Part shown: piece after piece, positions 2,440 through 21,888 of the stretch | Numbering within the stretch: position 1 is the stretch's first letter | Layout of the letters: each line of letters begins with the position of its first letter | Notes under the pieces: generated by a model | What the model saw: the letters and a program-made list of their open reading frames with translations, nothing else | Database searches by the model: none | What the model was told of the DNA's origin: nothing | Assembly: GCF_016793825.1 (NCBI RefSeq) | Contig: NZ_JAEULM010000051.1 | Span: forward strand, 1 to 64,000 | DNA: 64,000 bases | Direction of reading: 5' to 3' | Source of the DNA: Sphingopyxis sp. | GTDB taxonomy: Bacteria; Pseudomonadota; Alphaproteobacteria; Sphingomonadales; Sphingomonadaceae | Translations under genes and position numbers: made by a program

Positions 2440-5280
2440 TCAGCCCGAAAACAGCTCAAATGGGGCCCATAGCCCCGGATTGTCGACTTTCGCTTCACCG
2501 TCATTTCCCTTGCGAACCGTCAATATGGCGGCGCGCAGGGCCTCGGCGGGCGTTTCGCCGGCACGCATCCCGCCGACCATGCCGACCGAGAGTCGCCGCG
2601 CGATATCGTCGCGGACGGGCCAGTGACTCGCCATCACCTCGTCGGCTCCGGCAAGGAAAAACCCCTGAACGAGCCCCGAGAGCTGGGGCCGGTCGGCACC
2701 GGCCGCGCCTGCGCTGTTGCAGGCTGAAAGGATGACCAGCCGCGCCGGCAGGCTCAGCGACCCAATTTCGCTCGGCTTGAGGAGACCGTCATCCTCTCCC
2801 GCCGGGTTGAGCAGCAGCGCCGGCTCGTCCAATCCGTCGAAATCGCCGGGCAACAGGCCATGCGTGGCGAAAGCGAGCACCGATCCCGGCGGCACCGCGG
2901 CCGCGCGCAGGCCCGCCTCGGTCGCGTGATCGCCGATCAACAGATGGTTGCTGCCGGTCCCCAGCGCCTCAGCCAGCGCCCCCAATTCACGTTGGGCATC
3001 GGGCAGATCGGGCAATTCGGCGATTTCGTGCGCCGCGCCGCCCGATCGCATCGCCATCCGTTCGCCCGTCCGGCGCCCCTCCACGCCGCCGAGCGCCACC
3101 AGCGTGTCGATCGCGCCGGCTCCCGTTTCCGCACGCGCGCCTTGCGGAGCCCGGACCAGGCGGCTGATTGCCATGCGGTCGATCAGATAGGGTCCGCGCT
3201 TGCCCCCGGGCATCAACATCCCGAACGGCAGGGCCCCGAGCGATCCATTGGCGATTACCGCCAGCCGCTCCGTGCCCTTCAGCATGGTATCGGCCTCGCC
3301 GGGGAAAAGGCGGGCGTAGAGCATCGTGGCGGCGGCCGGATCGAAATCCGACGCCGCGCCGCCATCGATCGCGGTGCGCAGACGGCCGACGAGGCTCGCC
3401 AGCGCCGCCCCGTCGGGAATCAGATATTGCCGCGTCCCGGCATCGGTCGCCATCGTTGCCAGCCAGGACGGACCGAGATCGGTGAACATGACCGACGCGC
3501 TGCGCGGGGTGACCGGACCGGCAAATTGCGCGAGCGTCGCCGGCGTGAAGGTCAGCCTTGCGCGCTGCGCGGCGGAGAGCGTGGCGTCGAGATCGCCGAT
3601 CGCGCGCCGGTTGTTGTCCAGCTCGCGGGCCAGACCAGCCAGATCGAAAGCCGCATCGGGGCGCATCAGATTGGCGTCGAGCTTCGCCTCCAGCCCCTGC
3701 CGCGCGGCGAGAAGCTGGCGGCGCGTTGCAACCGCCGCGGCAAATTCGGGCTCGACCGTCACGGCGCGTTCGCTTTCGACGATCGCAAGCGCGTCGTCGA
3801 TGCTGCTCCGCGCCGCCCATTGCTGTGCCTCGAACGCATCCTCGACCGCCCCGCGCCGGGCGAACAGTTCGGCAAGCCAGCCATAAGCCGGGCGCTGGCG
3901 CTCCGCCTGCGCCGATCCGCGCGCGAGATTGGCGTTGAGGGTCAGCGCCCGGAACAGCGCGCGCGCCTCCATCAGCAGATCCGCCGGCGGTCGACGGTCG
4001 GCGCGGTCCTGCGCCCGCAGCAGCATGGCACGCGCCAGCAGGAGGTCGGGATGTTCGGGTGGCAGCATCCGGTCGCGCAGCGCGACCGCCTCTGCCGCAG
4101 CCTGCTCCGCCGTCTGCCAAGCGGCATTGACAAAGGCAGCCTTCGCCAAATTCTCGCGCGCGTTGGCGCGATCCCGATGCCCCTCGGGCAAGCGCGCATC
4201 GCGAATGCCGATCAACTCCCGCGCCAGCGGTTCCGCCTCTGCGCCGTGACCGGTGTTGAGCAGCGCGATCAGCCGAGTGTCGCGGGCAACCAGAGCGCGG
4301 TCGCTCTGGGCACCGAGCTGGGCATCGATGATCGGCGTGGCCGCGTCCAGAAAGGCGATCGCGTCGACATCGCGCCCGGCGCGGATCAGCGCCTGTGCGA
4401 ACTGGACTCGCATCGCCGCGCTGTTCTGATTGGGGCCGCCATTCGCCCCCTCGGTCAGTTCATAGGCATGGCGGATCATCGGCATCGCGTCGTGCGGACG
4501 GTTCACGCGCAACAGGATCGCACCGAGATTGGCATAGAGATTGGCCATCATCGGATGGTCAGGGCCGATGGCCGGGCCGACGCGGGCGATGGCGTCCTGC
4601 GCTGTCGCGATCGCCTTCTCGGTGCGACCGGCCGAATAGAGATAGACGACGCGATTGGCGTTCCAGATCGCCACGTCGGGGGGAACCGGATCGAGCGTCA
4701 GCGCGATGTCGATCGCCTGCCGGTTGCGCGCGAGCGCATCGTCGAGCCGCCCATGTTCGAGATAGGATGCAGCGAGATTCGAGAGGGTCGTCGCATAGTC
4801 GCGCTCCTTCCGGCCCTCGGGGATCGCTTCATAATCGGCGATCAAGCGTTCGTTGAGCGCGAGCGCCGCGGCATGTTCGCCCTTGAAATTGAGAATATAG
4901 GCGCGCGCGCCGATCGCATTGCGCCAGTTCCCGCGATAGGCGGGATCCGCCTCCAGGCGCGGGATCGCGCGATCGACAAGGGCGAGCGCGGCGTCCATGT
5001 CGCCCGAAGAGGCCAGCGCCATGGCGACATGCAGTTCGCCCAGCGCGATATCGGGGTGATCGCCGCGATGGAGGCGCTTTGCCTCGGCCAGCGTTTCGTC
5101 GGCCAGCGCGCGGTATCCGGCGGGATCGGCGTCCGCCGTTGCGGCGTCGAACTGTGCGGTCAGAGCTTCCAGCCGGCTGCGATCGATCGCGCCGTCCTGC
5201 GCCCAAGCCGCCGCGTTGCAGGCTAACGCCGCAGCAAAGCACGCGACCCAGACCGTCCGGTCGATTCCCCGCGTGACCAT
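2440..5280 (-). CDS. Exported TPR-CHAT (caspase-like) protein
   Basis: A 946-residue protein beginning with a signal peptide (hydrophobic stretch, cleavage near AAAWAQ|DG). Residues about 35-450 are helical TPR-type repeats (for example YATTLSNLAASYLEHGRLDD). The C-terminal third is a CHAT domain, the caspase/separase-like cysteine peptidase fold: the expected dyad is His807 in FATHGLLPG and Cys854 in VILSACNSAG, both present. The export signal suggests a periplasmic or surface location, unlike cytoplasmic CHAT effectors. It is the last gene of a minus-strand run that encodes a secretion barrel, a giant exported repeat protein and a two-component system, so processing of an exported partner is a reasonable guess but unproven. 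It lies 121 bp downstream of the lipoprotein gene and may have its own promoter. Confidence 0.85.
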   Translation of the reverse strand: MVTRGIDRTVWVACFAAALACNAAAWAQDGAIDRSRLEALTAQFDAATADADPAGYRALADETLAEAKRLHRGDHPDIALGELHVAMALASSGDMDAALALVDRAIPRLEADPAYRGNWRNAIGARAYILNFKGEHAAALALNERLIADYEAIPEGRKERDYATTLSNLAASYLEHGRLDDALARNRQAIDIALTLDPVPPDVAIWNANRVVYLYSAGRTEKAIATAQDAIARVGPAIGPDHPMMANLYANLGAILLRVNRPHDAMPMIRHAYELTEGANGGPNQNSAAMRVQFAQALIRAGRDVDAIAFLDAATPIIDAQLGAQSDRALVARDTRLIALLNTGHGAEAEPLARELIGIRDARLPEGHRDRANARENLAKAAFVNAAWQTAEQAAAEAVALRDRMLPPEHPDLLLARAMLLRAQDRADRRPPADLLMEARALFRALTLNANLARGSAQAERQRPAYGWLAELFARRGAVEDAFEAQQWAARSSIDDALAIVESERAVTVEPEFAAAVATRRQLLAARQGLEAKLDANLMRPDAAFDLAGLARELDNNRRAIGDLDATLSAAQRARLTFTPATLAQFAGPVTPRSASVMFTDLGPSWLATMATDAGTRQYLIPDGAALASLVGRLRTAIDGGAASDFDPAAATMLYARLFPGEADTMLKGTERLAVIANGSLGALPFGMLMPGGKRGPYLIDRMAISRLVRAPQGARAETGAGAIDTLVALGGVEGRRTGERMAMRSGGAAHEIAELPDLPDAQRELGALAEALGTGSNHLLIGDHATEAGLRAAAVPPGSVLAFATHGLLPGDFDGLDEPALLLNPAGEDDGLLKPSEIGSLSLPARLVILSACNSAGAAGADRPQLSGLVQGFFLAGADEVMASHWPVRDDIARRLSVGMVGGMRAGETPAEALRAAILTVRKGNDGEAKVDNPGLWAPFELFSG

Positions 5281-5401: not shown

Positions 5402-5980
5402 CTAATCGACCACCAGATAATAATGCGCCGTCGCCGCGCCGCCATTGGCGATCTCGATCCGGTAGCGTTGCGTAAAGACGGGCGTGAAGCTGCAGTCGCG
5501 CACATGGGCGGGCGAGCGGTCGCAGACCAGCTTGCCTTCACCGTCAAATATCTTCAGCCGCAAATCCTTTTGCGGTCGCGCGCTGGCGGCCACCGTCGCC
5601 ACCTGCCCCGACAGGAACACCTGGTCCATGCGCCGCGCCCCGCCCGGCGCCAGCGTGCCGCGAACATAACCAGGGCCGAGCGCGCGTCCGCGCACGGGCG
5701 GTATGGCCTCGGGAACGGCTTCGCGCCAGCGGGCGACGGGATCGCCCGCGCTGTCGTCGATCGGATGCGGGTTGCGCCGATCGATGCGCGCCACCGCCGT
5801 GGCAAGTGCGGCCTTGTTTCCGGTTTCAAAGGCCCGTTCGGCATCGATCATGTCGCGGGCCAAACCGCCAGCCAGCGACGCGGGCTCCGCCGGGCTAAGG
5901 CCCGCCGCTCGCGGCGCGGCGCAGGCCGACAGGACCGAGAGGAGGATTGCCGCGCCCGGCCATATCACTCCGCGTATCAT
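5402..5980 (-). CDS. Small lipoprotein of unknown function
   Basis: A 192-residue protein with a lipoprotein signal: hydrophobic N-terminus and lipobox VLSAC (about residues 16-20), so it should be acylated and held at the periplasmic face of a membrane. The C-terminal half (about 115-192) is predicted mostly beta, with GQVATVAASARPQKDLRLKI and a cysteine pair in KLVCDRS and VRDCSFT, resembling a small periplasmic beta-sandwich. Its ATG overlaps the histidine kinase stop by 4 bp, so translation is coupled and the product may act in sensing by that kinase. I do not recognise a named family. Confidence 0.75.
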   Translation of the reverse strand: MIRGVIWPGAAILLSVLSACAAPRAAGLSPAEPASLAGGLARDMIDAERAFETGNKAALATAVARIDRRNPHPIDDSAGDPVARWREAVPEAIPPVRGRALGPGYVRGTLAPGGARRMDQVFLSGQVATVAASARPQKDLRLKIFDGEGKLVCDRSPAHVRDCSFTPVFTQRYRIEIANGGAATAHYYLVVD

Positions 5981-7314
5981 CGCCTTCCCTCCTTCACCAC
6001 AAATCTGGCTCCCCTTTCGGACGGCTCGAGCACGATGGTCAGATCGTGTCGTTCGGCGATCGCCTTTGCCAGCGCCAGACCAAGCCCGCTCCCCGGCGAA
6101 TCGGACGCCTCGTCGCGGCTGCGATAGAAACGCCCGAAAATCCTGTCGCGATCGGCTTCCGCGATTCCGGGGCCGTCATCCTCGACGGTCAAGACCGGTC
6201 CGGCGGCGAGCGAGAGCCGGATCGTGCCGCCCTTCGGAACATATTTTAGCGCATTGTCGAGCAGGTTGGTCACGAGCTGCGTGAGTTGCATTTTCTCTCC
6301 GTCGAACAGGATGCCGGGCGAGATGTCCCAGGCGAATGCATGGCCCGAATCCTCGGCGCTGTCGGCGTATAGCTCGCAGATTCGCGTGACCATTTCGCTG
6401 AGGTTGAACTGCTTGAGGCCGTGGCGATCACCCTGACGCGCCTTGCTCGCCGCGATGTCGAGCAGCGATTCGAGCATTGCAACCAGCCGCTTGATGTCGG
6501 CGCGCCCTTCAAGCAGACGGGCGGCAACGGTCTCGCCGGGGTCGGCAGCGAGCGCCTTGGTCAGCCGCCCGTCGAGATGCATCAACGGCGTCCGGATTTC
6601 GTGCGCGATCTGATCCGACGTGTCGCGGTAGGCCTCCACCAGCCGCTTCTGCCTCGCGAGCGCCGCGGCGCTGTGCCCGGTCAGTTCGTCGATCTCGTCG
6701 GCGCGGCGGCCCGGCGCCATGGCCGTCAGGCGTTCGTCGTCGGATTCGCGAAAGGCATCGTTCAGGCGCTGGATGCGCCAGCGCAGTCGCCCCGCCGCCG
6801 TCCGCCCCCACGCGCCGACCAGCAGCACGAACAGCGCTCCCCCACCCAGGAACACGATGGCGACATGGCGGCGAAGCACGCCATTGTCCGACGTTTCGCG
6901 CGCGACGAGCAATTGCAGGTCCGGCCCCAGCCGGGTCGCGCGCGCATAGGCGCTCGTTCCCTTGCCCACCCGGATCGCGCCGCTTTCGGAAATCGCCGGA
7001 TCGAGCTTCGGCCATTGATGGATATCGCCCGCGATGCGCCGCCCGTCCGCGTCGGCGAGCATGTAATGCGGCGCGCTGCCGTCACGCGGCGTGATCGCCA
7101 GCCGGTCGGCGATCCGGCGCTCGAGCTCTTGCGGACCGCTGGCCGCATGGATGTCGGCAAGACCGGCGAGATCGACGTCGATCGACCGGCGCGCCGATGT
7201 TTCGAGCGTCGAGCGGATCGTCCGATCGGTCAGCGCCCACAGGCCCGACACGAGAGCGACGGACAGGAAAATCGCAACGGCGACGAGGCGCGAAAAGATG
7301 GAACGGCGAGCGAT
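5977..7314 (-). CDS. Two-component sensor histidine kinase
   Basis: Membrane histidine kinase of about 445 residues. A transmembrane helix near the N-terminus (IFSRLVAVAIFLSVALVSG), a periplasmic sensor of about 120 residues, a second helix (HVAIVFLGGGALFVLLVG), HAMP, then HisKA with the phospho-acceptor His in QIAHEIRTPL and HATPase with the N box NLLDNALKYV and G boxes VEDDGPGIAE and GSGLGLALAKA. It pairs with the response regulator directly upstream. The start is a problem: the regulator's stop overlaps this frame, and no ATG, GTG or TTG lies near the clear GGAGG ribosome site at about 7324-7328. The best-placed candidate is ATC at 7314; the next upstream GTG would overlap the regulator by over 130 bp. 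Confidence 0.85.
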   Translation of the reverse strand: MARRSIFSRLVAVAIFLSVALVSGLWALTDRTIRSTLETSARRSIDVDLAGLADIHAASGPQELERRIADRLAITPRDGSAPHYMLADADGRRIAGDIHQWPKLDPAISESGAIRVGKGTSAYARATRLGPDLQLLVARETSDNGVLRRHVAIVFLGGGALFVLLVGAWGRTAAGRLRWRIQRLNDAFRESDDERLTAMAPGRRADEIDELTGHSAAALARQKRLVEAYRDTSDQIAHEIRTPLMHLDGRLTKALAADPGETVAARLLEGRADIKRLVAMLESLLDIAASKARQGDRHGLKQFNLSEMVTRICELYADSAEDSGHAFAWDISPGILFDGEKMQLTQLVTNLLDNALKYVPKGGTIRLSLAAGPVLTVEDDGPGIAEADRDRIFGRFYRSRDEASDSPGSGLGLALAKAIAERHDLTIVLEPSERGARFVVKEGRR

Positions 7315-7319
7315 GCCGA

Positions 7320-8006
7320 CTACCTCCCGTCCAGCAGGCGATAGCCCGAACCCCAGATCGTTTCGAGCGCCGGTGTGGCAAACCCCTCCTCCAGCTTGCG
7401 CCGCATCCGCCCGACATTGACATCGACGACATTGGTCTGCGGGTCGAAGGACATGTTCCACACGTCCTGCAACAGCATTTCGCGCGTCACGACCTCGCCC
7501 GCATTTTCCATGAAATAGCGGAAGAGTTCGAATTCGCGCGGGCTGAGCGCCAGGTGCCGGTTGTCGCGAAAGGCGGTGCGCGCCTTCACATGGCATTCGA
7601 AGGCGCCATAAAGGATTACCGCACTATGTTCGCGGCCGGCGGCGCGCCGGTGCAGCGCGCGAAGGCGCGCCAACAATTCCTCGGCCTCGAAAGGTTTGGC
7701 CAGATAATCGTCGGCGCCGGCATCGAGTCCTTCGGCGCGGTCGGTCGTGCGGCCGAGTGCCGACAGCATCAGGACGGGCGTCCCGACCCCGCTTTCGCGC
7801 AGCCGCTTCAGAATCGTCAAGCCGTCGAGGTCCCCGAGCATCCGGTCGAGGATGATGATATCGAACTTTTCCATGCCCGCGCGCAGCAGCCCCCCCGACC
7901 CGCTGTTTTCCCAGACGACCATATCGCCCCGACGGGCGGCCAGTTCCTGGACCTCGCCTGCGGCGCGTTGATCATCCTCGACATAAAGGATTTTCAGCGT
8001 TTCCAT
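7320..8006 (-). CDS. OmpR/PhoB-family response regulator
   Basis: 228 residues. Receiver domain with acidic pocket YVEDDQ, phospho-acceptor Asp54 in IIILDRMLGD and conserved Lys104 in LAKPFEAEE; C-terminal winged helix (about 135-225) with SPREFELFRYFM and VNVGRMRRKLEEG. It should bind DNA as a phosphorylated dimer. The start METLKIL was chosen because the receiver fold begins there; the frame is open further upstream. It precedes and overlaps the kinase gene and follows the CsgG-like gene by 79 bp. A likely target is the motif shared upstream of the CsgG-like and Slam-like genes. Confidence 0.93.
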   Translation of the reverse strand: METLKILYVEDDQRAAGEVQELAARRGDMVVWENSGSGGLLRAGMEKFDIIILDRMLGDLDGLTILKRLRESGVGTPVLMLSALGRTTDRAEGLDAGADDYLAKPFEAEELLARLRALHRRAAGREHSAVILYGAFECHVKARTAFRDNRHLALSPREFELFRYFMENAGEVVTREMLLQDVWNMSFDPQTNVVDVNVGRMRRKLEEGFATPALETIWGSGYRLLDGR

Positions 8007-8085: not shown

Positions 8086-8967
8086 TCAGCCAAGGTCTTC
8101 GACCGATACCCATCCCTGGGTGCCGTAACTGTCCTTCACCTCAATGAAGAGACCATCGCGCTTGCCCGTCGGGGTCAGGTCGGTCCCGGCGCGCAAGGCG
8201 CGGACCGAAGCGCCATCGACGGCAGGCGTTGCGCGCATCACCGTGTCGATCGCCACATTGGCTGCGGAGGCAGCAGGCGCAGCGGCGGCGAGCGGTGGGG
8301 CCTTGGGCAGCGAGGCGAGGGTCGCGCCCTGGGCGGACACGGCGTTGAAGGCCTTGACGAAGGCCTCGACAAGCATCTTGCCGTCCTTGCTCGCGCCATA
8401 GCCCGCAGCGTTCGCCCCGGCGGTCCAGGCATTGCCGCCTCCAAAACTGATCGAGGTCTTGCGTACCTCGCCGGTCCCCGTGACGATCGCTTGTCCGGTG
8501 GAGGGACTGAGCAGCTTGATGCCCGCAGCGACGCGCTTTTTCTTGCCGCCAAAACCGCCGAACATGCCGAGCAGGGCACCGCCGACGGGGATCTTTGACA
8601 CCAGGCTGCTTGCCGCGCCGGAACGCACCAGCCCTTCGACCGCCGCCGATTTCGCCATCTCGACCGATTTGTCCACCTCTTCGGAATCGCCCGCAACAAC
8701 GTTCATCAGGAAATCGGCCGGGGCGACCGACGCCGGACTATGCGGCGTGAAGCAACCCGATTCGATCGCCAGCGAAGCGATCAGTTCGCGCGGCGAGCCG
8801 AGACCATAGTTCGACCAGCCCTGCGTATCACCCTCCACCACGGCGATGGTGCCATAGCTTTGCGTGCATTTGTTGAGCGTAACCGCTTCCTGCTCCGCAG
8901 CGTGGGCGGCGGATAACGGGCCCGCGAGCAGCGTGGTCGCGGCGATGACGGCAATCGACTTGTTCAT
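8086..8967 (-). CDS. Exported CsgG-like protein with C-terminal SH3-like domain
   Basis: 293 residues with a cleavable signal peptide (cleavage near SAAHA|AEQ) and a good ribosome site (GGGAGGG) before the ATG. The middle part (about 35-190) has the character of CsgG/HfaB-type proteins: TIAVVEG near the start and AAGIKLLSPSTGQAIVTGTG later, with a glycine-rich loop GGFGGKKKR. The last 55 residues (from TPAVDGASVRALR to GWVSVEDLG) look like a bacterial SH3 domain that could bind cell wall. It sits between the giant exported protein and the response regulator. CsgG proteins form outer-membrane export pores; whether this one does is an inference from weak similarity, and no lipobox is seen. Confidence 0.6.
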   Translation of the reverse strand: MNKSIAVIAATTLLAGPLSAAHAAEQEAVTLNKCTQSYGTIAVVEGDTQGWSNYGLGSPRELIASLAIESGCFTPHSPASVAPADFLMNVVAGDSEEVDKSVEMAKSAAVEGLVRSGAASSLVSKIPVGGALLGMFGGFGGKKKRVAAGIKLLSPSTGQAIVTGTGEVRKTSISFGGGNAWTAGANAAGYGASKDGKMLVEAFVKAFNAVSAQGATLASLPKAPPLAAAAPAASAANVAIDTVMRATPAVDGASVRALRAGTDLTPTGKRDGLFIEVKDSYGTQGWVSVEDLG

Positions 8968-9073: not shown

Positions 9074-12000
9074 TCAGGGTACGGCAGGCGGCGGAGCCGC
9101 GAATGTCGCAACACCACTGACCGCCAGGCTTCCGTCGTTGATCGAGTAGCCGACCCCGACATGCGATGCTCCCGGCCCGAACAGGGCGCCGCGCACATTG
9201 CTCGAACAACTGGTGGTGCAGCTCGCGGCGGTCGTGCCGCTGATCAGCGCGGCGCCGTCGAACTCGACCTGTCTGCTTCCCAACAGATTGTGGCCGCCGT
9301 TGGCCGGGTTGGCCGCGCCGCCCGCCGTCCGGACTTCCCAGCCATATTGGTCGATGGCGACGGCGAAATCGAAACCGACCTTCTTCGTCGCGAAATCGAT
9401 CGCGAGGTTGCCGGTGAAGGTGCCGGGTTCCAGATTGGCGTCGCGATCGACCGGCCGCGTCTTGCCGATCAACTGATATTCGACTCCGCCGCTGGTCGGC
9501 AACGCCGATGCCTGGGTGCCCGTCACGATCGGATTGCCCGAATTGGGCAGCTTAGGGTCGCTAGTGTTGAAATTATTAGTGTCGAGCCAGCGCGCCCAGC
9601 CGATCACCCCGTTGACGCTGCCGCTTTCCTCGGCGGGTCCGCGATGCTGCGGCAGGACGCCGACCGGCGATCCGTTGCTGCGCGTCCACTGCGTGATCGC
9701 CCCGTTCGCGTCATAAGTGACCTTCGAATTATAATGGGCATCGTTGGTCCGGGCGTAGGTCACGTTGAGCAGATACTGGTTCGTATAGTCGCCGGTCGAG
9801 ACGGTCGGGGCGGGCTGCGCCGCGAAGCCGGCGACACCGATCACCTCATTGGTCGCGCTTCCCAGCTGGACGACATATTCGAGGCCCATTTCCTTGCCCG
9901 AGGGTCCTGCAAGAAAGCCGGTCCAGATCGCCCGGCAACTGGTGGTGCAGGTGCCGCCCGTGCTGGTCACATTGCCGTTCGCGCCGATCGCGTAAAAGGC
10001 GCCGTTTGAGAGCGAAAGCTCGCTCGCCGACAGATCGGCGAGCCCGCCTGCGGTCCGGGCGGTGAAGCGGTCGCTGTTATAGTCGAACACCAGATCGATT
10101 CCGACTTTGGCCTGCGCGCCGAACTGCACCGCCGCGGCGCCGCTGACCAGTGCGCCGGGCGCACCGGCGCCATAGCGCTGCGTCGGACGCGTGCCGCCGA
10201 CGAGCTGATAATCGACGCGGCCCGAAGCCGGCAGGTTGACGGATGGAGTGCCGACGATGAAATGATAGCCCTGGTTATCGGAAAGCGTGACGGGGCTCCG
10301 GCCGCCAGTGCCGGCATTGCGCCCCATATCGAGCGTACCACCCCTCCAGCGCGTCCATTGCAGGACGCCGCTGTCGGTCATTCCGCTGTCGGCGTGCGTC
10401 GCGGTGCCGATCCGGTCGTATCCGCCGAAGCTTCCAATGGTCCGTATGCCGACAATCGCGCCGCTCGCGTCGATTTCATAACCCTGGTTCGCATTGGGGT
10501 TTGCCGTGACCGACAGGTTGATCGGATGGATGGTATTGGCGTCGTATGTCGAACTGAGCCGCGCCTCCGCACTGAGGAGGTTGGCGGTCACGAAGGTCGG
10601 CTCGGGCGCAGGGCCCCCGGAAAGCGTTCCGTTGCCGAACAGCGCGGCGCCGATCAGCGTCTTGGCGTCGCCCAGGTCGTTGCGCGCGGCATAGGTCAGG
10701 CCGAGTTGCTCGCTGTTGCCGGCAAAGGCGCCGTTCGCGTCGAACTGACAATTGGCCGTCTGGCAGTCGGGGCCGGCGACGCCGGGAACGAGGAAGCCGA
10801 AACGGCCGCCGCTGGAGCTGGTGAGGCTGGTCTGGCTCTGCGTCGGGTCCGACATCCCGCCTGCGGTCGCATAGCGGAAGGTCCGGTTGGCTTCGCCGAT
10901 CAGTCCGGGCATGGTGATCGTCGCGTCGAACGCCACCTTGGGCGCGGCGCCCAGCACGATCGCCATATCGCCGTCGAAGCCGCCCGCCGGCAGCGAACCG
11001 TCGATGATCGTCGGCCGCGTCGCGGCCAGCAGGTCATAGCTGATCAGGCCCTGCACCGGCAGCGCGAAGTCCGATGCGACGGGTCGGGTCAGCATGTAAT
11101 GCAGTCCCTGATCGGCGCTGAGTGTAAAGGGATTGGCGCCGGTGTTGACGCCATCGGTCCAGCGGCCGATCAGCATGTCCGCATTGCCCGACGCGTCGGT
11201 GATCGTCGTGCTCCCGTTGGTCCGGGTGACCCCTCCGTGGGTATATTGAACGAGCCCGCCATCACCGGACAGCCCGTAGCTGGTCGCGATCGATCCGCTC
11301 TCGCTTCCCGGGACCGTCTGACCGTTGTTCAGGGTCAGCGTGGTGATGAAGTTGACCACCGGACCCGTCGGACTGAAACCGCCAGCATAGGCGAGCCGGG
11401 GCGGCGGTGCGACGCTGTTATACTGCGGATCGGGGTCCGGATCGACGCCGCCGGTGCCGGCCGAGGCAAAGGCGACTGTGCCCTGAATGCGCTCGGCACT
11501 CTGGAAATTGGGGTTGTCGACCGTCTGATAGGTCATGCCGATCCGGTCCTGCGACCCACCGAAGCCGCCGTAGAAGAGGATCAGGCAATTGCTGCTGTTG
11601 CAGGCGCTGCCGCTGCCGGTCATCTTGCCATTCATGTTGAAGACCGGGTTGATACCGCCGGTATTCACCAAAGCGCCGGTGCTGCGTCCCTCCGACGCGA
11701 AGTCGTAGCGGACGTCGCCGCCATTCTCGGGCATGACGATCGTGCCGTCGAAGCCGTAGCTGAGGTTGGAGGGGCCGAAGCCGATGGTCAGACTGGCGTC
11801 GAAGCTGCCGGGCGCGGCGCGGCCGGAGGCGAATACGGGCTTTGTCGCGGCGAGCACCTCATAGTCGATCGTGCCGGCCGTCGGCAACGGCGCGGCGAGC
11901 GGCGCGGTCACCACCCACGGCACGCCGCCATTGGGGCCGATGTTGACATTGCCGCCGCGAAAGCGCGCGGTGCCGTTGGTATAGCGTCCGACGACCACCG

Positions 12001-15000
12001 ACGCGTCGCCCCCGACATCGGCGACCTGTGCATCGACGTTGGCGAGGTCGCCCGCGTCGGTCAGGGCGCCATTGGCATCGAGTTGGGGCGCTCCCGACGC
12101 GTGTGCGGAGACACCGGCATGGGCGGCATAGGCGCGCGCGCCGGTCACACCGCTCGGGAACCCGCCCGGATAGCCGGGATTGGTGCCAGTGCCGGGCAGT
12201 CCGGCGAACTGGTCGGGATCGGCACCCGTTTCGATATGGGCGAGATAAGCGACCAGGAATTGCAGCGCCGCGCCCGGCAGCCGCTCCTCCAGCACCCCTG
12301 CGCGGTCGAGCGCGGCAAGATAGGTTTCGACCTGTTCCGGCGTCAGCGCCGTATATTCGGACGGCACCCCACCGCCGAGCAGGAAAGCATAATAGGCCTG
12401 CACCGCCTGCAGCCAGTTCGCATAGACCGGCAGCCCGCCATAATCCGCGGCATCGCCGCCACCGGCGAGGAAGGCGTAATAGGCGCCGAAAAAGGCATCG
12501 AGGTCGCCATGCGCCGCAAAGCCGCCCGCCGCATTCAGCGCCGCAAGATAGGCAGCGATCTGCTCCTGCGTCAGCGTCGTATAGCCAGCGGGGAGGCCCC
12601 CGTTCGCCAGATAGGCATAATAAGCGTTCAGCGCCGCGACATAGACGTCATGGACGGGAAGATCCGCATATTGTGCGGGATCGCCGCCGCTCGCCAGATA
12701 GGCGTAGTAAGGGGCGAAAAAGCCATCGAGGTCCGCAAAGGCCGACAAGCCGCCAGCGCCGTTGAGCGCCGCCAGATAGGCGCGGATCTGCGCCGGTGTC
12801 AGCGCGCCATAGCCCGCCGGAAGACCCCCGTTCGCGAGATAGGCGTAATAGGCATTCAGCGCCACGACATAGTTGGCATAAACTGGAAGGCCGCTGAAGC
12901 CGTTCGGGGCACCGCCGCCGGCAAGATGGGCGAAATAGGCATTGAGAAGCGCCGCATTGTTGCCGAGCAGGTCGGCAAGCCGGCCCGAAGCGACGACCGC
13001 GTCGAGATAGGTCTTGAGCGTCGCCAGGCTCTGTGCGTCATAATCCGCCGGCAGGCCGCCACCGGCGAGGAAGGCCGCATAGGCATTCAGCGCCGCCGCG
13101 AAGGCGGGATAGTCGGGCGGCACGGGCAGCCCGGCATATTGATCGGGATTGCCGCCACCCGCGATGAAGGCAAGATAGCCCGCATAGAAATCGGCCCTGT
13201 CGCCGAGGAAAAGCCCGCTGGCCCCCGCCGCGTCGAGCGCGGCGAGATAGGCGCGTATCTGCGCCGGTGTCAGCGCGGTATAGCCCGACGGAATGCCGCC
13301 ATTTTCAAGATAGTCGAAATAGGCCGCCAATGCCTGGGCGTAGCCCGCGAAGATATTGGCGTTCAGGCCAGCGAAGGCGTCGGCCTGTCCGCCGCCCTGC
13401 AGAAAGGCGAGATAGGCGGCAAAGAAATCCGCCCGCTCGCCGAGGAAGCGTTCGAGCGCCCCGGCAGCCTGCAATTGCGCGAGAAACGCCTGTAGCTGCG
13501 CGACGTCCGCACCCTGATAGGCGGACGGGAGCTTGCCTGCCGCGAGCCAGGCGAAATAGGTGTCGAGTTGCCCTGCGTAGCCCGCAAAGACATTGGCGGG
13601 CAGCCCTGCGAAGGCATCGGGCGCGCCGCCGCCGCGCAACCAGTCGAGATAGGCGGAGAAGAAGGCCGCCCGCTCGCCCGCCACCGCGGAGAGCAGACCG
13701 GCGCTCGACAGCGTTTCGAGATAGGTCCGCAGCGTTGCGGCGTCGAGTTCCGCATAACCGCTCGGCAACCGGCCGGCCGCGAGCCAGGCGAAATAGCCGT
13801 CGAGCGCCGCGCGATACTGGCCGGCGAAAGCCAGCCCGCCGTTCGCCAGATAGGCATCGAGCAAGGCCCGATCGCTCGCGCCGAGTTGCTGCGCCAGTCC
13901 GCTGTCGGACAGGAACGCGATGTAGCGGGCGATGGTGTCGGCGCTTGCCTGTGTGAAGTCGTCGGGATTTCCGCCTGCCCGGACGAAAGCGAGATAGGCC
14001 CTGGTCAGATCGACGAAGCGCGCGGTGAACAGGTCGCGATCACCGCCGCCCCGCAGGAAGGCCAGATAGGCCTCCGCCAGCGCGCGATCGCGCGCGCCGA
14101 GCTGGGCCAGTCGGCCGGTCCGGTCGCCATAGGCCAGAAAGGCCTCGATGTTGGCGAGGTCCGCCGCGCCAAAGCTCGACGGCGCCGCGCCCGAACGCAG
14201 CAGATCGAGATAATCGCCGAGGAAGCCCGCATAGGCCGTCAGGAAATCGGCGCGCGAACCGCCTCCCGCCAGCCAGGACAGATAGGCGCGAACAATGTCT
14301 GCCTGCGCCGCCGGGAAGGATTCGCCGCCATAAGCATGGGCAAGGTCGCCGGCCCGGGCGACGAGCAGCGCAAGATCGCCACTCGGGAACGTCTCGATCG
14401 CCGGATTCGCGACCGCCGCATCGATGCGGCGCGCCGCCGCCAATATGTCGCTCGACGCACCCGCCGCCGCCAGCGCATCTCCGAGGGTGACGGGCACGCC
14501 GTTCTGCGCGGCCGCGACGGGCCCGCCGTCCGCCATCGACACCACCGGCGGCGCGTCGGCGCCGGGCGTCGCCTGCGCGCCGTTCGCGACCGTCTGTTCG
14601 GGCCGCCTGCCCGGCGCGAAGGCAAACATCTCGCCCGCCTTGAAGCGCCGCAAGTCGTCGGCGGGGCCAACGCTCACCTGCCCGGACAGGGCATGACCGC
14701 GCCCGGCGCCGTCGGCGGCCACGCTGAAATTGGCCGCCGAACCGCGACCGGCCACCCGCCCTTCGACACCGGCCGGCATCCGGACGACGGTCTCGCCGGC
14801 GCCGCTCGCGACCGTCACGCTTCCCGCATACAGATCGACCGACCCGTCGGCGTTGATCCGATAGTCGGCGGCATCGAGCACCGAAATGGTCGCACCGCCG
14901 TCGAGCCGGATCTGCTTGAGCCCGTCGACCTGGTGCACCCGTTCGCCGACCGACGGCAGGGTATCGCCCTTCGATGAGAAAAGGATGTGCGCGGCCTGGG

Positions 15001-15079
15001 CCGGTATCGCGAGCGACAGACCCGAAACAGTCGCCATCAGCACGGCGCTCAGGCGAATCTTGGGATTGGAAGTCATCAC
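9074..15079 (-). CDS. Giant exported FecR-domain / tandem-repeat / TbpB-like protein
   Basis: 2001 residues. A signal peptide (cleavage near IPAQA|AH, no lipobox) is followed by a FecR-type beta domain (about 40-155), a linker, then a region (about 265-960) with 18 copies of a Y-x-A-[FYW]-L-x-x-G-G-x-P-x-x-[FY] motif. From residue 429 these alternate at about 48 and 30 residues, giving seven units of 76-80 residues. The C-terminal half (about 1000-1996) holds four related beta-rich modules. Each has an LPxxGxxxY / TRP segment, a cysteine pair (1160/1165, 1439/1444, 1711/1715, 1954/1958) and a closing G-x-F-x-G ... G-x-x-x-F segment, like the barrels of TbpB-type Slam substrates. These eight are its only cysteines. 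The gene starts 27 bp after the Slam-like barrel gene, so it is the likely substrate. Surface exposure is inferred. Confidence 0.8.
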   Translation of the reverse strand: MMTSNPKIRLSAVLMATVSGLSLAIPAQAAHILFSSKGDTLPSVGERVHQVDGLKQIRLDGGATISVLDAADYRINADGSVDLYAGSVTVASGAGETVVRMPAGVEGRVAGRGSAANFSVAADGAGRGHALSGQVSVGPADDLRRFKAGEMFAFAPGRRPEQTVANGAQATPGADAPPVVSMADGGPVAAAQNGVPVTLGDALAAAGASSDILAAARRIDAAVANPAIETFPSGDLALLVARAGDLAHAYGGESFPAAQADIVRAYLSWLAGGGSRADFLTAYAGFLGDYLDLLRSGAAPSSFGAADLANIEAFLAYGDRTGRLAQLGARDRALAEAYLAFLRGGGDRDLFTARFVDLTRAYLAFVRAGGNPDDFTQASADTIARYIAFLSDSGLAQQLGASDRALLDAYLANGGLAFAGQYRAALDGYFAWLAAGRLPSGYAELDAATLRTYLETLSSAGLLSAVAGERAAFFSAYLDWLRGGGAPDAFAGLPANVFAGYAGQLDTYFAWLAAGKLPSAYQGADVAQLQAFLAQLQAAGALERFLGERADFFAAYLAFLQGGGQADAFAGLNANIFAGYAQALAAYFDYLENGGIPSGYTALTPAQIRAYLAALDAAGASGLFLGDRADFYAGYLAFIAGGGNPDQYAGLPVPPDYPAFAAALNAYAAFLAGGGLPADYDAQSLATLKTYLDAVVASGRLADLLGNNAALLNAYFAHLAGGGAPNGFSGLPVYANYVVALNAYYAYLANGGLPAGYGALTPAQIRAYLAALNGAGGLSAFADLDGFFAPYYAYLASGGDPAQYADLPVHDVYVAALNAYYAYLANGGLPAGYTTLTQEQIAAYLAALNAAGGFAAHGDLDAFFGAYYAFLAGGGDAADYGGLPVYANWLQAVQAYYAFLLGGGVPSEYTALTPEQVETYLAALDRAGVLEERLPGAALQFLVAYLAHIETGADPDQFAGLPGTGTNPGYPGGFPSGVTGARAYAAHAGVSAHASGAPQLDANGALTDAGDLANVDAQVADVGGDASVVVGRYTNGTARFRGGNVNIGPNGGVPWVVTAPLAAPLPTAGTIDYEVLAATKPVFASGRAAPGSFDASLTIGFGPSNLSYGFDGTIVMPENGGDVRYDFASEGRSTGALVNTGGINPVFNMNGKMTGSGSACNSSNCLILFYGGFGGSQDRIGMTYQTVDNPNFQSAERIQGTVAFASAGTGGVDPDPDPQYNSVAPPPRLAYAGGFSPTGPVVNFITTLTLNNGQTVPGSESGSIATSYGLSGDGGLVQYTHGGVTRTNGSTTITDASGNADMLIGRWTDGVNTGANPFTLSADQGLHYMLTRPVASDFALPVQGLISYDLLAATRPTIIDGSLPAGGFDGDMAIVLGAAPKVAFDATITMPGLIGEANRTFRYATAGGMSDPTQSQTSLTSSSGGRFGFLVPGVAGPDCQTANCQFDANGAFAGNSEQLGLTYAARNDLGDAKTLIGAALFGNGTLSGGPAPEPTFVTANLLSAEARLSSTYDANTIHPINLSVTANPNANQGYEIDASGAIVGIRTIGSFGGYDRIGTATHADSGMTDSGVLQWTRWRGGTLDMGRNAGTGGRSPVTLSDNQGYHFIVGTPSVNLPASGRVDYQLVGGTRPTQRYGAGAPGALVSGAAAVQFGAQAKVGIDLVFDYNSDRFTARTAGGLADLSASELSLSNGAFYAIGANGNVTSTGGTCTTSCRAIWTGFLAGPSGKEMGLEYVVQLGSATNEVIGVAGFAAQPAPTVSTGDYTNQYLLNVTYARTNDAHYNSKVTYDANGAITQWTRSNGSPVGVLPQHRGPAEESGSVNGVIGWARWLDTNNFNTSDPKLPNSGNPIVTGTQASALPTSGGVEYQLIGKTRPVDRDANLEPGTFTGNLAIDFATKKVGFDFAVAIDQYGWEVRTAGGAANPANGGHNLLGSRQVEFDGAALISGTTAASCTTSCSSNVRGALFGPGASHVGVGYSINDGSLAVSGVATFAAPPPAVP
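12200..14287 (-). repeat. Coding repeat array, about 7 units of 76-80 codons
   Basis: In-gene repeats of the 2001-residue protein. Motif copies of the form YYAYLANGG-x-P start at residues 429, 508, 587, 667, 744, 820 and 896, with a second half-motif about 48 residues into each unit (477, 556, 635, 715, 791, 867, 945). Units toward the C-terminal side are the most alike, for example the pair at 744 and 820, which suggests recent duplication there. Confidence 0.8.
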
Positions 15080-15106
15080 ATCATCTCTCCCGGGGAAATC
15101 AGCGGA

Positions 15107-16390
15107 TCAGAATTCGAGGCGAAGGCCGGCCGAGACGGTCCAGCGTTCGTAATCGTAAAGGACGATGTTGCTCCAGTTGCGCGTCCAGGTGGCGCGCGGC
15201 TGGAGGAAGAGCCGGTCGGTCAGCGCGAACTTCACGCCCGCCGTCAGGTCGAGGCGTTCATCCTGGCGCTTCGTCAGGAACAGCACGTCCGGCTGGTCAT
15301 AGCGGCGCAGATCGAACGCCGCGCCGGCGACCAGCGCCAGCCTGGGCGCCACCGGCAGTTCACCACCGATATTCGCGCCCGCGAACCAGTTGGATTCGGC
15401 ATCGCCCGCCCGGCGCCGCACCTCCTCCTTGCCGCCGGTCAGATTGACCGCAACGGCACGGGTGACATAGCCGATGCCCACGGCAAGACGGTCGGCATCG
15501 CGCAGCGGCGCGCCATCATAATCGAACCGGTTCCACTGCGCCGACAGGGTCAGCGCGCGGCCGCGATCGAGCGTCTTGGTATATTGGCCGATGACGCCAT
15601 AGGAGGTGCGATAGCCATTGTGACCGAGCCAGAATCTCTGCACCTGCCCCGACATGGAAACGACATCGCGATTGGCGAAGCTGTGCGCGTAGCCTGCGGT
15701 GCCGGTCAGCGCCGCCTGGTCGAAGACGCGGCTGTCGACATTGTCGCGCCAGTTGCCGAGCACGCTCGCGAACAGCCGATCTTGCCGCCCGATCGCGGTG
15801 ACGCCGGACACGCCGCCCTGGATTTCATAATATTCGTCATCCTGCGCGACCGCCCCCGGGCCGAGCGTGCCGGGGCCCAGAAAGCTGAACAGCGGAATGA
15901 CGATGCTGGTCAGGTCGGTCGCGGCGTTGACGTTGCTGTCGTGCCCGACGCGCGCGTCGAGAAAGCCCGAGACGTCCGACCCGCCCCCGCCGATCTGCTT
16001 GTCGAACTGGCGCACGAAACCGGTGAAGCGCTGCCGCACCGGGTCGGGCAGGCTGGGGTCGTCGACGACCGTCGAGAATTCCTGCCGCGCCGTGTCGATG
16101 TCGCCGGCAAGCGCATAGGCGCGAGCCAGTTCCGCGCGAGCCGGGGCATTGTTGGGCTGCACTGCCAGAACGCGCTGAAGCGCGATCACCGCCTCGCCAT
16201 AATGGCCCGCGTCGAGCGCCGCGATCCCGAGCTGATAGTCGAAATCGGGATCGCCGGCCCGCTGGCCGACCTGTGCGGCCAGCGCGTCATAGCTGGCAGT
16301 TGCCGACGCCTGCTGCGCCGCGGCAGCTTGCAACGGCATCATTGCTCCCAGCGCAAGTACCGTCAGGCTGGTCAATAATCGCGTCGTCAT
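15107..16390 (-). CDS. Slam/DUF560-type outer-membrane barrel with N-terminal TPRs
   Basis: 427 residues. Signal peptide (cleavage near QAAAA|QQ), then TPR helices (about 40-115; GIAALDAGHYGEAVIALQRV and ARAYALAGDIDTARQEF), then a predicted beta-barrel of about 280 residues with alternating amphipathic strands, ending in LRLEF with the C-terminal Phe typical of outer-membrane proteins. This is the architecture of Slam (surface lipoprotein assembly modifier), the core of type XI secretion, which moves TbpB-like proteins to the surface. The next gene encodes a giant protein with TbpB-like modules, which supports a translocator-substrate pair. Start chosen at the ATG before the signal peptide; the frame is open 30 codons further. 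Confidence 0.8.
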   Translation of the reverse strand: MTTRLLTSLTVLALGAMMPLQAAAAQQASATASYDALAAQVGQRAGDPDFDYQLGIAALDAGHYGEAVIALQRVLAVQPNNAPARAELARAYALAGDIDTARQEFSTVVDDPSLPDPVRQRFTGFVRQFDKQIGGGGSDVSGFLDARVGHDSNVNAATDLTSIVIPLFSFLGPGTLGPGAVAQDDEYYEIQGGVSGVTAIGRQDRLFASVLGNWRDNVDSRVFDQAALTGTAGYAHSFANRDVVSMSGQVQRFWLGHNGYRTSYGVIGQYTKTLDRGRALTLSAQWNRFDYDGAPLRDADRLAVGIGYVTRAVAVNLTGGKEEVRRRAGDAESNWFAGANIGGELPVAPRLALVAGAAFDLRRYDQPDVLFLTKRQDERLDLTAGVKFALTDRLFLQPRATWTRNWSNIVLYDYERWTVSAGLRLEF

Positions 16391-17172: not shown

Positions 17173-18111
17173 TCAATTCTCGACTGGACGCTCGCCTGCC
17201 AAGGCTTCGAGTTCGGCGATCCGCTCGGAGCAGATCACATGGACGGCGCGCCCCAGATTTTCGACCCGGGCACCGAGCCACCGCAGTTCCTCCGCCGAGA
17301 TGCGGTAATGTTTCGAGTAGCGCGCTTTCACATAAGCTTCCTTGAGCTTCTCGAACCGAGCGCGGTCGCCGCGGGTTTCGCGCGGCCAGGCTTCGACGAG
17401 GCGCATGTCCAACCGCTCCGCTTGCGTGCGGAGAAAGCCAAGATTGTGTACGTGTGGCGTGTAGAAGGTCCGGACTAGGAGCACGCAATGATATAGAAAC
17501 TCTGAGCTTTGATGCAGATCGAAGGCGGCCGGCTTCAAAAACCCCTTCTCCGCCCCCATCTTTGAAAGTTCAAATCGCTGCATCGCGAGCGGAAACCACT
17601 CGTCAAAATATTCTCGCGCCATGTCGAGCGCCTGCTCAGGCGTCTTCGGCTTTGGCGTGTGCAGTTCAACGTCGTCAAATTCGTAGAGCGCAATCCCATC
17701 GCGCGCGACATCCATGAAAAAATATCGCCCGTGCGCGAGCCCGTCATTCACTTCCTGTAGGGTGTGAACGATGAAGTTCACCGGCGTGTGGAGCGTGCGG
17801 TCGATCGCGAGCTCGCGCGTCAGCCGATCATCAAGCTTCGACCAATAATCGACCTTGTCGGTGAGCCGCTTGTCGTTGACGATGATGAGCAGGTCGAAAT
17901 CCGAACGATAGCCTTTCGCGGTGTGGGGTTCGTCGACCCAACCGCCGCGCGCATAGCTGCCATAGAGGATGATCTTGTCGATCCGGCCCTTCTTCTTCCA
18001 GCCTTGGGTCGCGAGAGCCAGCGCATCTTCGAACTCTTCGAAGACGATCTGCTTCACGCGCTCGAGTTCGCGCTGTTTGTTCGCCGGAAGATGATCAAGA
18101 TCGGTTCGCAT
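17173..18111 (-). CDS. Nucleotidyltransferase-HEPN two-domain protein
   Basis: 312 residues. The N-terminal domain is a MNT/KNTase-type nucleotidyltransferase with ILYGSYARGG (about 47-56) and the metal-binding pair in YRSDFDLLIIV. The C-terminal half (about 175-312) is a HEPN-like helical domain with ALDMAREYFDEWFPLAMQRF and EFLYHCVLLVRTFY. As separate proteins MNT and HEPN form type VII toxin-antitoxin pairs in which MNT modifies the HEPN RNase; here both are fused. I see no clear Rx4-6H catalytic HEPN motif. Start at MRTDLDH chosen by domain onset; the frame is open for 72 more codons upstream. It lies just downstream of the relaxase gene and may be a stabilising or defence cargo. Confidence 0.75.
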   Translation of the reverse strand: MRTDLDHLPANKQRELERVKQIVFEEFEDALALATQGWKKKGRIDKIILYGSYARGGWVDEPHTAKGYRSDFDLLIIVNDKRLTDKVDYWSKLDDRLTRELAIDRTLHTPVNFIVHTLQEVNDGLAHGRYFFMDVARDGIALYEFDDVELHTPKPKTPEQALDMAREYFDEWFPLAMQRFELSKMGAEKGFLKPAAFDLHQSSEFLYHCVLLVRTFYTPHVHNLGFLRTQAERLDMRLVEAWPRETRGDRARFEKLKEAYVKARYSKHYRISAEELRWLGARVENLGRAVHVICSERIAELEALAGERPVEN

Positions 18112-18215
18112 TACGTCTTCTACTGTGTCCGCGCATGCCGGCATTGGCAAGGCCGAACCCCTTCCATTCGGGAGGAATCGCAACCGTTCCCGGATGTTAA
18201 CCGCAGCGCGCACGA

Positions 18216-20180
18216 CTAGGAAATCGATGGTCCGCCGCGCTGGCGCCCGAGCGACCAGTCGATGCCGCCGGCACGAAGCGTTCCTGCAATCGTTTTGCCG
18301 ATATGACGATCGAGGACCGGGCGCCATGGCACCAGGGTAAAATCGCGCGAACGTTCGACGAGGACATGGCGCCTGCTTTCCATATTCACGAGACGCGCAA
18401 GCCGGCCCTCGATTCTCTCCCCGATCCCCGCCTCGTGAAAGCGCTTTCCGAGCTCCTCAGAAATCCGGTTTGCCTCACGCAAAAGTTCGCGACGCGCGAG
18501 GAGGTTCAGCGCGTCGCGGCGGATGATGAGCCGGCCCCCGCTTTCATGGGCCAGATTTTCATCAAGAAGCCACTGGCGCCGGATCGCCTGGGCCGCCCTG
18601 ACTTCGCGCCCGAAACCCGCATCGCGCACGGGAGCGGGATGGTCGGATATCATATCGCGATCGAGCCAGGTCGCGCCATCCAGCGTCGCCGTCCGCTCGA
18701 CCGGTTTGAACGACAGCAGCTCGACGCCGACCGGCTGGTCGCGCAGGCGCCCTCGTTCCCAGGCTTCGACCTTCGCCAGATGATCGGGGGTGATCGTCCA
18801 GCTTCCATCGGCTTCGCGCTCGACGCTGCGCATCGCCTTGCGCATCGCCTCCAGCCTGCGGACGTGCGTGCCCGCGAAAGCTTCGCTCGCCCCAGCGTCA
18901 TATTCGAGATGGGCGTCGAGTGAATATCGCCCACCGTTTGCCGCCGCCACTTCGACGATCGTGCGGTCGGCCTGCCGCACGCGTGCATCGCGCTTATCGA
19001 TGCGAATGATAGCGCCTTCGGGTGTCGCCTCTAGGTGACTGCCCAGCCCGACATCGACATAGTGAACACGCCCGTCGACCCCATCGACGATCACAAAATG
19101 TCGGTCGCGAAGTTCGTCTGCGAGCCCGCGCGAGACGACGCGGCCGAGGAGCGGCGCCGTCCCCTGCTCCTCCGGATCGAAAATCACCCGGTCGCTGTGC
19201 AACTGCGCACCGCCGCGCGCCGTGATCTCGCGCTGCATCGTGCGGATGATATCGCCGCGCTCGCCCATCCGGCGCAACGTAGTGGCGAGATCGGACTCGA
19301 GCCGCCAACTTTCGCCGCCCATATACGTCGCGAGACCGAGGCGCGCGAGCTTCTGCAACCGGCCTGTGCGAAGCGCCTGTCGAAACGCGTCGGCAGCCGA
19401 CGCGGATACTATACGATGCTCGTCCATATCGGCGATCAGCTGACGGTCGATCCCGGTAAGCCGCTCGGCCCCCGTCTCGGCGCGCAGTCGCGCCTCGATT
19501 TCGAGTTCTGTGCGGGGCCCGAGATCGAGCGTCGCAATCTCAGCCGCCCGCTCCCGCGCCCCGTGGGAAATATATTCGCGGGCGATGACGAGATCGTCGC
19601 CGCGATCGTTCCTGCCACGAAGGATGATGTGGCTGTGTGGATGGCCGGTGTTGAAATGGTCGACCGCGACCCAGTCGAGGCGGGTTCCCAGATCCTTTTC
19701 CATTTGGTCCATCATGCGGCGGACGAAGGGCTTGAGATCGGTATATTGATCGCCGTCCTCCAGCGACACGATCAGGCGGAATTGATGGCGGTCGCCGCCG
19801 GAGCGTGACAGGAATTCGCGGCCGTCGGCGATGTCCGTCTCGGCGGAATAAAGCTGCCCCGGCGAACCCTCGCGCGTCACCCCGTCGCGCTCGATATATT
19901 TGAGATGTGCCTTTGCGCCGCCGGCACCCCTTCCGCCAAGCGTCGCGAGACGAAATTTGACGACCGCCCGCCGGGACCGAAAAGCGGAATGGCGATCGCG
20001 CGATCGCAACACGCGGGCGACGCCGGCGCCGCGGCCGATACGGCTGCCGTCGAAGCCTCCGCGTCTGGGCGCGCGGCGGCCTGCGACGCGCGCGGCTTTC
20101 ACGACGAGTGCAAGATAGCCTGCTTCCTTGCCCCGGCGGCGCATCCGCCCCAGCCGCGGCGTAAACTCCTCGTCGTCCAT
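18216..20180 (-). CDS. Relaxase/mobilization nuclease (VirD2-like, DUF3363 type)
   Basis: 654 residues. After a basic N-terminus (RLGRMRRRGKE) comes the relaxase core (about 70-240) with HLKYIERDGV and the metal-binding histidine motif HFNTGHPHSHIILRGR. The long C-terminal part matches the DUF3363 style of alphaproteobacterial plasmid relaxases (ITPDHLAKVEAWERGR). It should nick at oriT and pilot the strand into the recipient. A candidate oriT lies 140-220 bp upstream. Start MDDEEF has a GAGGAAGG ribosome site. No coupling protein or T4SS genes are nearby, so transfer would depend on functions elsewhere. Confidence 0.85.
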   Translation of the reverse strand: MDDEEFTPRLGRMRRRGKEAGYLALVVKAARVAGRRAPRRGGFDGSRIGRGAGVARVLRSRDRHSAFRSRRAVVKFRLATLGGRGAGGAKAHLKYIERDGVTREGSPGQLYSAETDIADGREFLSRSGGDRHQFRLIVSLEDGDQYTDLKPFVRRMMDQMEKDLGTRLDWVAVDHFNTGHPHSHIILRGRNDRGDDLVIAREYISHGARERAAEIATLDLGPRTELEIEARLRAETGAERLTGIDRQLIADMDEHRIVSASAADAFRQALRTGRLQKLARLGLATYMGGESWRLESDLATTLRRMGERGDIIRTMQREITARGGAQLHSDRVIFDPEEQGTAPLLGRVVSRGLADELRDRHFVIVDGVDGRVHYVDVGLGSHLEATPEGAIIRIDKRDARVRQADRTIVEVAAANGGRYSLDAHLEYDAGASEAFAGTHVRRLEAMRKAMRSVEREADGSWTITPDHLAKVEAWERGRLRDQPVGVELLSFKPVERTATLDGATWLDRDMISDHPAPVRDAGFGREVRAAQAIRRQWLLDENLAHESGGRLIIRRDALNLLARRELLREANRISEELGKRFHEAGIGERIEGRLARLVNMESRRHVLVERSRDFTLVPWRPVLDRHIGKTIAGTLRAGGIDWSLGRQRGGPSIS

Positions 20181-20323
20181 AGTGCGTCCTTCCTCGCGGA
20201 ATGACGCTCCCCGGAACATAAATGGGACATCAGCGCCGCGCCGCAAGGAGTCTCGCGGTATTCCGCCACAATCAACGCAAATCCGCCGTTGGCGCTTACC
20301 ATATCTCGCCGGCGGGTGACCTG

Positions 20324-20396
20324 TCTCGCGATAGCGACTAAAAAAGGATGTGCAGACAAAGGCTTGCAGTATCGCGAGATATTGCTTCTATCTTGC
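20324..20396. other. Candidate origin of transfer (oriT)
   Basis: A perfect 10-bp inverted repeat, TCTCGCGATA at 20324-20333 and TATCGCGAGA at 20370-20379, is followed 9 bp later by TATCTTGC (20389-20396). RP4/VirD2-type nic sites follow the consensus YATCCTG|Y; this differs at one position (T for C). An inverted repeat next to such a site, at the 5' end of a relaxase gene, is the usual layout. The predicted nick would fall between 20395 and 20396. Confidence 0.5.
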
Positions 20397-20437
20397 CCTC
20401 CGGACTTCTGCTCCCCAAGCGTGCCCCTCAGCCGCTC

Positions 20438-21808: not shown

Positions 21809-21888
21809 TTTTCGTCTCCTCAAATCCGCCGCCAGGACCATTCCCGGTGGCATGGGCGGACCAGAGGCCGGCGCCGGAGGCGGGGCGC

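Follow-up and report, generated by a model that had tools for sequence, protein, structure and literature searches.

The window analysed here, 64,000 nucleotides of Sphingopyxis sp. DNA (contig NZ_JAEULM010000051.1, positions 1 to 64,000), carries on its reverse strand two adjacent genes, one for an outer-membrane protein of the Slam/DUF560 kind and one, just downstream, for a very large exported protein that ends in four TbpB-like modules. An earlier note on this DNA had described the pair as an outer-membrane protein separated by 27 bp from a 2001-residue exported protein without a lipobox, and both open reading frames are indeed in place. We propose, with a probability of roughly 0.72, that the two genes form a type XI exporter and its dedicated cargo, the modules of which would be displayed at the cell surface. 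Our confidence is high that the pair is an exporter plus cargo and low for any particular function.

The most probable start of the upstream gene is the ATG at 16390, which gives a protein of 427 residues in place of the 457 of the longer open reading frame. Its product has a signal peptide recognised by eye, TPRs (Pfam TPR_19, E 1.3e-8) and, as its last residue, a phenylalanine encoded at 15107. This is the TPR plus terminal-Phe barrel architecture of Slam that the earlier note had seen in it, and in model searches the Slam barrel model SlipAM matches the window copy at E 8e-4, under its cut-off, and the orthologues down to 5.3e-11 (14 of 20 at E <= 1), and TPR_Slam matches all 20 orthologues (best 5.6e-6). 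With TPRs and a SlipAM match in the same protein, the feared outcome, an unrelated porin with no TPR-to-barrel match to Slam, did not materialise, and we take the window protein as a divergent member of Slam/DUF560. A scan of the host genome with the SlipAM model gave zero matches, as did its controls, and so carries no information.

The downstream protein carries a signal peptide that ends in AQA, and by eye it has no lipobox. In an AlphaFold model of residues 30-1206 (predicted local distance difference test, pLDDT, 78.6; predicted template modelling score, pTM, 0.33), a beta domain is followed by helices over residues ~182-950 and then by module 1. In the Protein Data Bank (PDB), this model best matches the putative anti-sigma factors 4m0n and 4m0h (E 6.3e-4 to 1.9e-3, ~128 columns), with fHbp and TbpB chains ranking lower, at E >0.01. 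The match listing carries no aligned range; we infer that 4m0n and 4m0h match the beta domain and that both entries are FecR-type. Pfam FecR (PF04773) has no match in the window cargo at E <= 1 or at E <= 5, nor do the Pfam TbpB domains match the whole 2001-residue protein at E <= 1, so that both domains are assigned from predicted structure and from relatives. Thus the FecR domain named in the earlier note stands by fold (4m0n, E 6.3e-4) and by Pfam in two of three distant relatives, and falls by Pfam on the window protein itself; by profile, the window domain and the FecR domain of one such relative (locus L115) are weakly linked (hhalign probability 14.5%). Overall, the N-terminal domain looks FecR-like in its predicted structure.

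The predicted helical rod that follows is ~770-790 residues long, with internal repeat spacings of 24, 55, 76 and 79 residues. One 228-bp unit is present in 1.9 tandem copies (79% matches), and the window rod is longer by 76 residues than that of locus L051 (790 vs 714). Pfam matches to ANAPC2 (E 1e-4, just over the cut-off) and DPC2 on these repeats are taken as composition effects.

The architecture also invites another reading, in which the cargo would leave the cell as a soluble protein, the FecR-like domain being a mere passenger. The lack of a lipobox fits such a release, and soluble type XI cargo is common in the parts of a published survey used here (PMC12282271). However, a long rod with tandem heads would be better suited to tethered display and FecR-like domains recur in distant relatives, so that we consider soluble release rather unlikely.

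Tethered display would concern four C-terminal modules, which an iterated hidden Markov model (HMM) detects in the window cargo at E 1.3e-59 to 1.1e-66, values that are partly circular because the HMM was trained on the same modules. The four are 26-35% identical to one another. The protein contains exactly eight cysteines, one pair per module and zero elsewhere, just as the earlier note had counted them. Across 52 modules from 18 cargoes, 48 have two cysteines, four have none and not one has a single cysteine; this paired presence or loss fits a disulfide, which probably closes each module. Modelled by AlphaFold from 46 module sequences, module 4 adopts a handle-barrel fold (mean pLDDT 82.6, pTM 0.83). 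In a Foldseek comparison with the PDB, the best 50 of its 61 matches at E <= 0.001 are solely TbpB, LbpB, hemophilin/HphA, fHbp and NHBA chains (best E 2.7e-6, query template modelling score 0.36-0.51, root-mean-square deviation often >8); among the matches listed, 3hoe is titled just Surface Lipoprotein. The barrel that the earlier note had made decisive is thus predicted for module 4, with the folds of Slam cargo. Modules 2 and 3 would be TbpB-like too, by homology to the modelled modules 1 and 4.

Such folds could mean that the modules capture metal or haem for iron scavenging, like TbpB, LbpB and hemophilin; in fact, the best module 4 fold matches listed are TbpB and hemophilin chains. Yet fHbp and NHBA, which share the fold, bind other things, and no TonB receptor was found among the neighbours traced across relatives, the probes being the window's own neighbours only. 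Iron scavenging thus appears distinctly improbable to us.

The pairing of exporter and cargo extends well beyond the window. When a species genome collection was scanned with the Slam protein, 20 independent loci emerged; their titles read Sphingopyxis, Hephaestia, Novosphingobium, Erythrobacter, Altererythrobacter and Parasphingorhabdus or, for the remainder, unclassified Sphingomonadales, Sphingomonadaceae or Alphaproteobacteria. A complete long cargo frame directly follows Slam in 15 of the 20, at gaps of 17-35 bp with the starts used (-37 to 31 with longest-frame starts), and all 15 cargoes contain modules; the pairing is therefore not due to chance. In the other five, the contig ends inside the cargo (L058, L064), the cargo is broken by a run of N (L070), the Slam match is truncated (L067), or a cargo-like signal peptide can be read for ~40 residues before the sequence diverges, ~250 bases short of the contig end (L068). 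Counting the window's own, 396 Sphingomonadales genomes were scanned. Slam is matched strongly in 17 of them (E < 1e-70; next best 1.5e-16), and the 15 with module matches (E <= 1e-10) all lie within these 17; the two Slam-positive genomes without modules hold a Slam fragment (G280, L114) or a locus at a contig end (G283, L100). Together with the HMM and the fold matches, this co-occurrence rules out chance similarity as the origin of the modules. As judged from these genomes, the pair is conserved but patchy across Sphingomonadales. Cargo occurs in 3 of 35 other same-genus genomes, and the Slam protein is 87-89% identical between Sphingopyxis and Hephaestia loci, for which reasons horizontal transfer of the pair was considered. 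A plasmid location was rejected, the Slam protein having no match in 72,556 plasmid records.

The outer-membrane protein might still be a generic TPR-barrel not dedicated to any cargo, with the large protein staying in the periplasm, where FecR domains classically reside; matches to generic barrel models, given below, would suit this. It is opposed by the strict co-occurrence and adjacency of Slam and modules and by module folds that match Slam cargo, and we regard it as highly improbable.

Cargoes vary in their number of modules. Eighteen of them (the 15 above, L043 from G019, L044 from G009 and the window's) have two modules in 5 cases, three in 10 and four in 3; with 13 further ones, there are 31 distinct cargoes, of which one has a single module, 9 have two, 16 have three and 5 have four. 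In these counts L100, L102 and L042, which duplicate the contigs of L068, L060 and L053, are entered once, the three HMM matches of L104 are scored as two modules, two of them being adjacent pieces of one, and loci without a complete cargo (L058, L064, L067, L068, L070, L100, L114) are left aside; L044 is a 5.6-kb draft contig with Slam split across two contigs. In a sample of 327 genomes of the class, modules are matched in the window's genome and in two others (L138, L139). At the distant loci L115, L138 and L139, a one-module cargo directly follows a TPR-barrel gene. Pfam FecR is found in two of these cargoes (L115 1.5e-9, L139 3.2e-10; none in L138), and SlipAM in the TPR-barrel partners at L115 (1.7e-11) and L138 (2.4e-9). 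This suggests that the long cargo may have grown from a cargo made of FecR, a linker and one module.

Modules turn over between close relatives. L051 and L052 are 92% identical in the rod and 91% in module 1, vs 28% in their third modules. Compared with the window, L053 lacks module 1 and has modules 2, 3 and 4 at 75, 88 and 86% identity, and the G019 cargo has counterparts of modules 1 and 4 only (77 and 69%). Synonymous divergence, from simple pairwise estimates without confidence intervals over ~205-221 codons per module, is 0.48 for Slam, 0.70 for the rod and 0.61, 0.40 and 0.30 for modules 2, 3 and 4 between the window and L053; 0.18 for Slam, 0.30 for the rod, 0.30 for module 1 and 0.56 for module 2 between L051 and L052; and 0.79 for both module 4 and the rod between the window and G019, the contrast being absent in some such pairs. 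Such gain, loss and replacement of modules on a largely similar rod, together with unequal synonymous divergence, points to cassette exchange. These comparisons show modules to be exchangeable between close relatives that keep the exporter and the rod. In a tree of the 52 modules, the labels for position (first, middle or last) group together, though not cleanly, with 14 changes vs 24.9 in shuffles (0 of 200 as low as 14); the tree was built by a quick method, with 12 of 49 branches unsupported and three long rows.

The pair also has a recurrent genomic context (Table 1). In the window, the SH3, regulator, kinase, small-protein and CHAT genes all lie downstream of it, and the CHAT domain retains ATHG and LSACNSA stretches, which presumably hold the catalytic His and Cys. 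Regulator and kinase occur at 16 of the 21 distinct loci compared, the SH3 gene with both at 14, the small protein at 15 and CHAT at 7, several loci ending too early to judge; the block lies upstream of Slam in L054 and L058. Regulator and kinase also accompany 10 of the 13 further cargo loci. Among 16 loci picked by the SH3 protein in genomes without a Slam match (L116-L131), nine have SH3, regulator, kinase and small protein together, six of the nine with CHAT. Because the block is also found without Slam, it is linked to the pair yet independent of it. An obligatory whole cluster is excluded by these blocks without Slam and by pairs without the block (L106, L111, L115). A CsgG-like identity of the SH3 protein, suspected by eye, found no support: Pfam gave just SH3_3 under the cut-off, and a PDB profile search an unrelated match at E 0.15.

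Table 1. The exporter-cargo pair and linked genes in the window.
Feature	Position	Strand	Basis and remarks
Slam/DUF560-type outer-membrane protein, 427 aa	15107..16390	-	Signal peptide, TPRs, C-terminal barrel, terminal Phe
TPR region of Slam-type protein	16064..16237	-	Pfam TPR_16, residues 82-139 of 457-aa frame
SlipAM-matching barrel part	15140..15730	-	Pfam, residues 251-447 of 457-aa frame, E 8e-4
Cargo protein, 2001 aa	9074..15079	-	Open reading frame, GTG start, 27 bp downstream of Slam gene
N-terminal beta domain, FecR-like by fold (residues 30-166)	14582..14992	-	Predicted structure; Pfam without match
Helical repeat rod (residues ~182-950)	12230..14536	-	Repeats and predicted structure; pLDDT <50 in parts of first 70 residues
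Recent tandem copy of 228-bp (76-aa) rod unit	12447..12937	-	Repeat search
TbpB-like module 1, Cys 1160/1165	11459..12208	-	Iterated HMM; AlphaFold model of residues 30-1206
TbpB-like module 2, Cys 1439/1444	10628..11374	-	Iterated HMM
TbpB-like module 3, Cys 1711/1715	9815..10576	-	Iterated HMM
TbpB-like module 4, Cys 1954/1958	9092..9811	-	Iterated HMM, AlphaFold model, Foldseek
Linked exported SH3-domain protein	8086..8967	-	Pfam, relatives; often beside pair, not obligatory
Linked response regulator	7320..8006	-	Pfam, relatives
Linked histidine kinase frame	5977..7596	-	Pfam, relatives; true start probably near 7320
Linked small protein	5402..5980	-	Lipobox-like signal peptide (by eye)
Linked TPR-CHAT protease-like protein	2440..5280	-	Pfam; signal peptide by eye

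Elsewhere in the window, the region just past the CHAT gene (8-2050, forward strand) encodes a tyrosine integrase and an IS91-type transposase, and upstream of Slam (17173-24473, reverse strand) come nucleotidyltransferase-HEPN, DUF3363 relaxase-like and ParB-domain proteins, as in a mobile element. Farther away (39609-46356), a TonB-dependent receptor with an STN domain is grouped with prolyl-oligopeptidase-type and asparagine-synthase-type proteins, a set that we take to resemble a lasso-peptide cluster. Consensus promoter and terminator scans gave chance level only.

How might the pair work? We envision that the Sec pathway carries the cargo into the periplasm, where the Slam barrel, by analogy with known Slam proteins, would recognise one or more TbpB-type modules and move at least the C-terminal part of the cargo to the surface. 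The predicted helical region would then act as a long spacer rod, and the FecR-like domain, in place of a lipid anchor, may serve to retain the N-terminus, either in the periplasm or at the cell surface. The modules would form a tandem display, with a disulfide probably closing each of them; adhesion or surface ligand capture would be the most likely use, and module exchange would alter what is bound. A bolder and, to us, unlikely extension makes the pair a cassette-exchange platform, in which Slam and a constant FecR-tethered rod carry heads that are swapped between strains to change adhesion, ligand or phage-receptor specificity; the periplasmic FecR end of this cargo, which would span the outer membrane, could then report to the neighbouring two-component system.

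Several results weigh against Slam-dependent display of TbpB-type modules. The SlipAM match of the window protein (19.4 bits, E 8e-4) is below the Pfam cut-off of 22, generic barrel models match its orthologues too (OMP_b-brl 17/20, DUF2860 19/20, BBP2_2 9/20), and the partner of the L139 cargo has no SlipAM match in Pfam. The HMM search for the TbpB-like barrel that the earlier note had proposed gave little: Pfam TbpB_B_D gives weak matches, under its cut-off, in 2 of 46 modules (E 0.12-0.26), and the module profile found only an unrelated chain among PDB sequences (E 1.9). Moreover, 11 of the 18 cargoes carry a tail of 61-133 residues past the last module, where the usual layout has a terminal barrel, and no conserved neighbour among those traced across relatives hints at a ligand. 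As to the tails themselves, 8/18 cargoes have W-x-R-W within their final 100 residues and 7/18 an (L/M)GG(L/M)(I/V)(S/T)F ending; the window cargo has neither. Tails with W-x-R-W and LGG-type endings are found at L051 (12.3-13.2 kb), L043, L052, L055, L069 and others.

If our reading holds, the pair adds a class of type XI cargo that has a FecR-like domain and a helical rod in the place of a lipid anchor and bears one to four TbpB-type heads. It opens testable questions: which module does Slam read among several, and how does lipid-free cargo stay at, or leave, the surface? For free-living bacteria, head exchange between close species would amount to a natural experiment in how cargo is recognised and how the surface varies.

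In the library searched, no paper combined DUF560 and FecR. The term FecR is absent from the text of PMC12282271 and from the passages used of PMC8406197, which describe subcluster 1C as largely environmental Sphingomonadaceae; in PMC12300311, on an Acinetobacter genome, the terms FecR domain and transferrin-binding protein-like both occur. The earlier note had given known substrates as usually carrying one or two barrels. This calls for an update: the survey passages report two to three barrels both for Sphingomonas surface proteins, the type XI cluster 1 cargo with Pro-Thr repeats, and for Psychrobacter surface proteins (PMC12282271). The Sphingomonas proteins resemble our cargo in their sphingomonad hosts, Slam partner and tandem handle-barrel pairs. 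They are described there with an N-terminal Pro-Thr repeat region and often as lipoproteins, whereas our cargo lacks a lipobox and combines a FecR-like domain and helical rod with up to four modules. Arrangements like those of the Sphingomonas proteins exist in same-genus genomes, where distant Slam-type genes (L047, L048, L050) adjoin Pro-Thr-rich proteins with lipobox-like signal peptides. Pls-like cargo, with Slam-dependent secretion shown for one member (PMC12282271), likewise has helical repeats before its barrel; it differs by an EEARKA-type helix and, in those passages, by being mostly lipoproteins with no FecR-like domain mentioned. TbpB, LbpB, hemophilin, fHbp and NHBA share the predicted fold of module 4, but have one or two barrels and undetected or marginal sequence similarity to the modules. 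Finally, the FecR-domain proteins (PF04773) share the predicted fold of the N-terminal domain, with clear Pfam matches in the relatives L115 and L139, whereas the window domain has no Pfam match and is fused to a type XI cargo.

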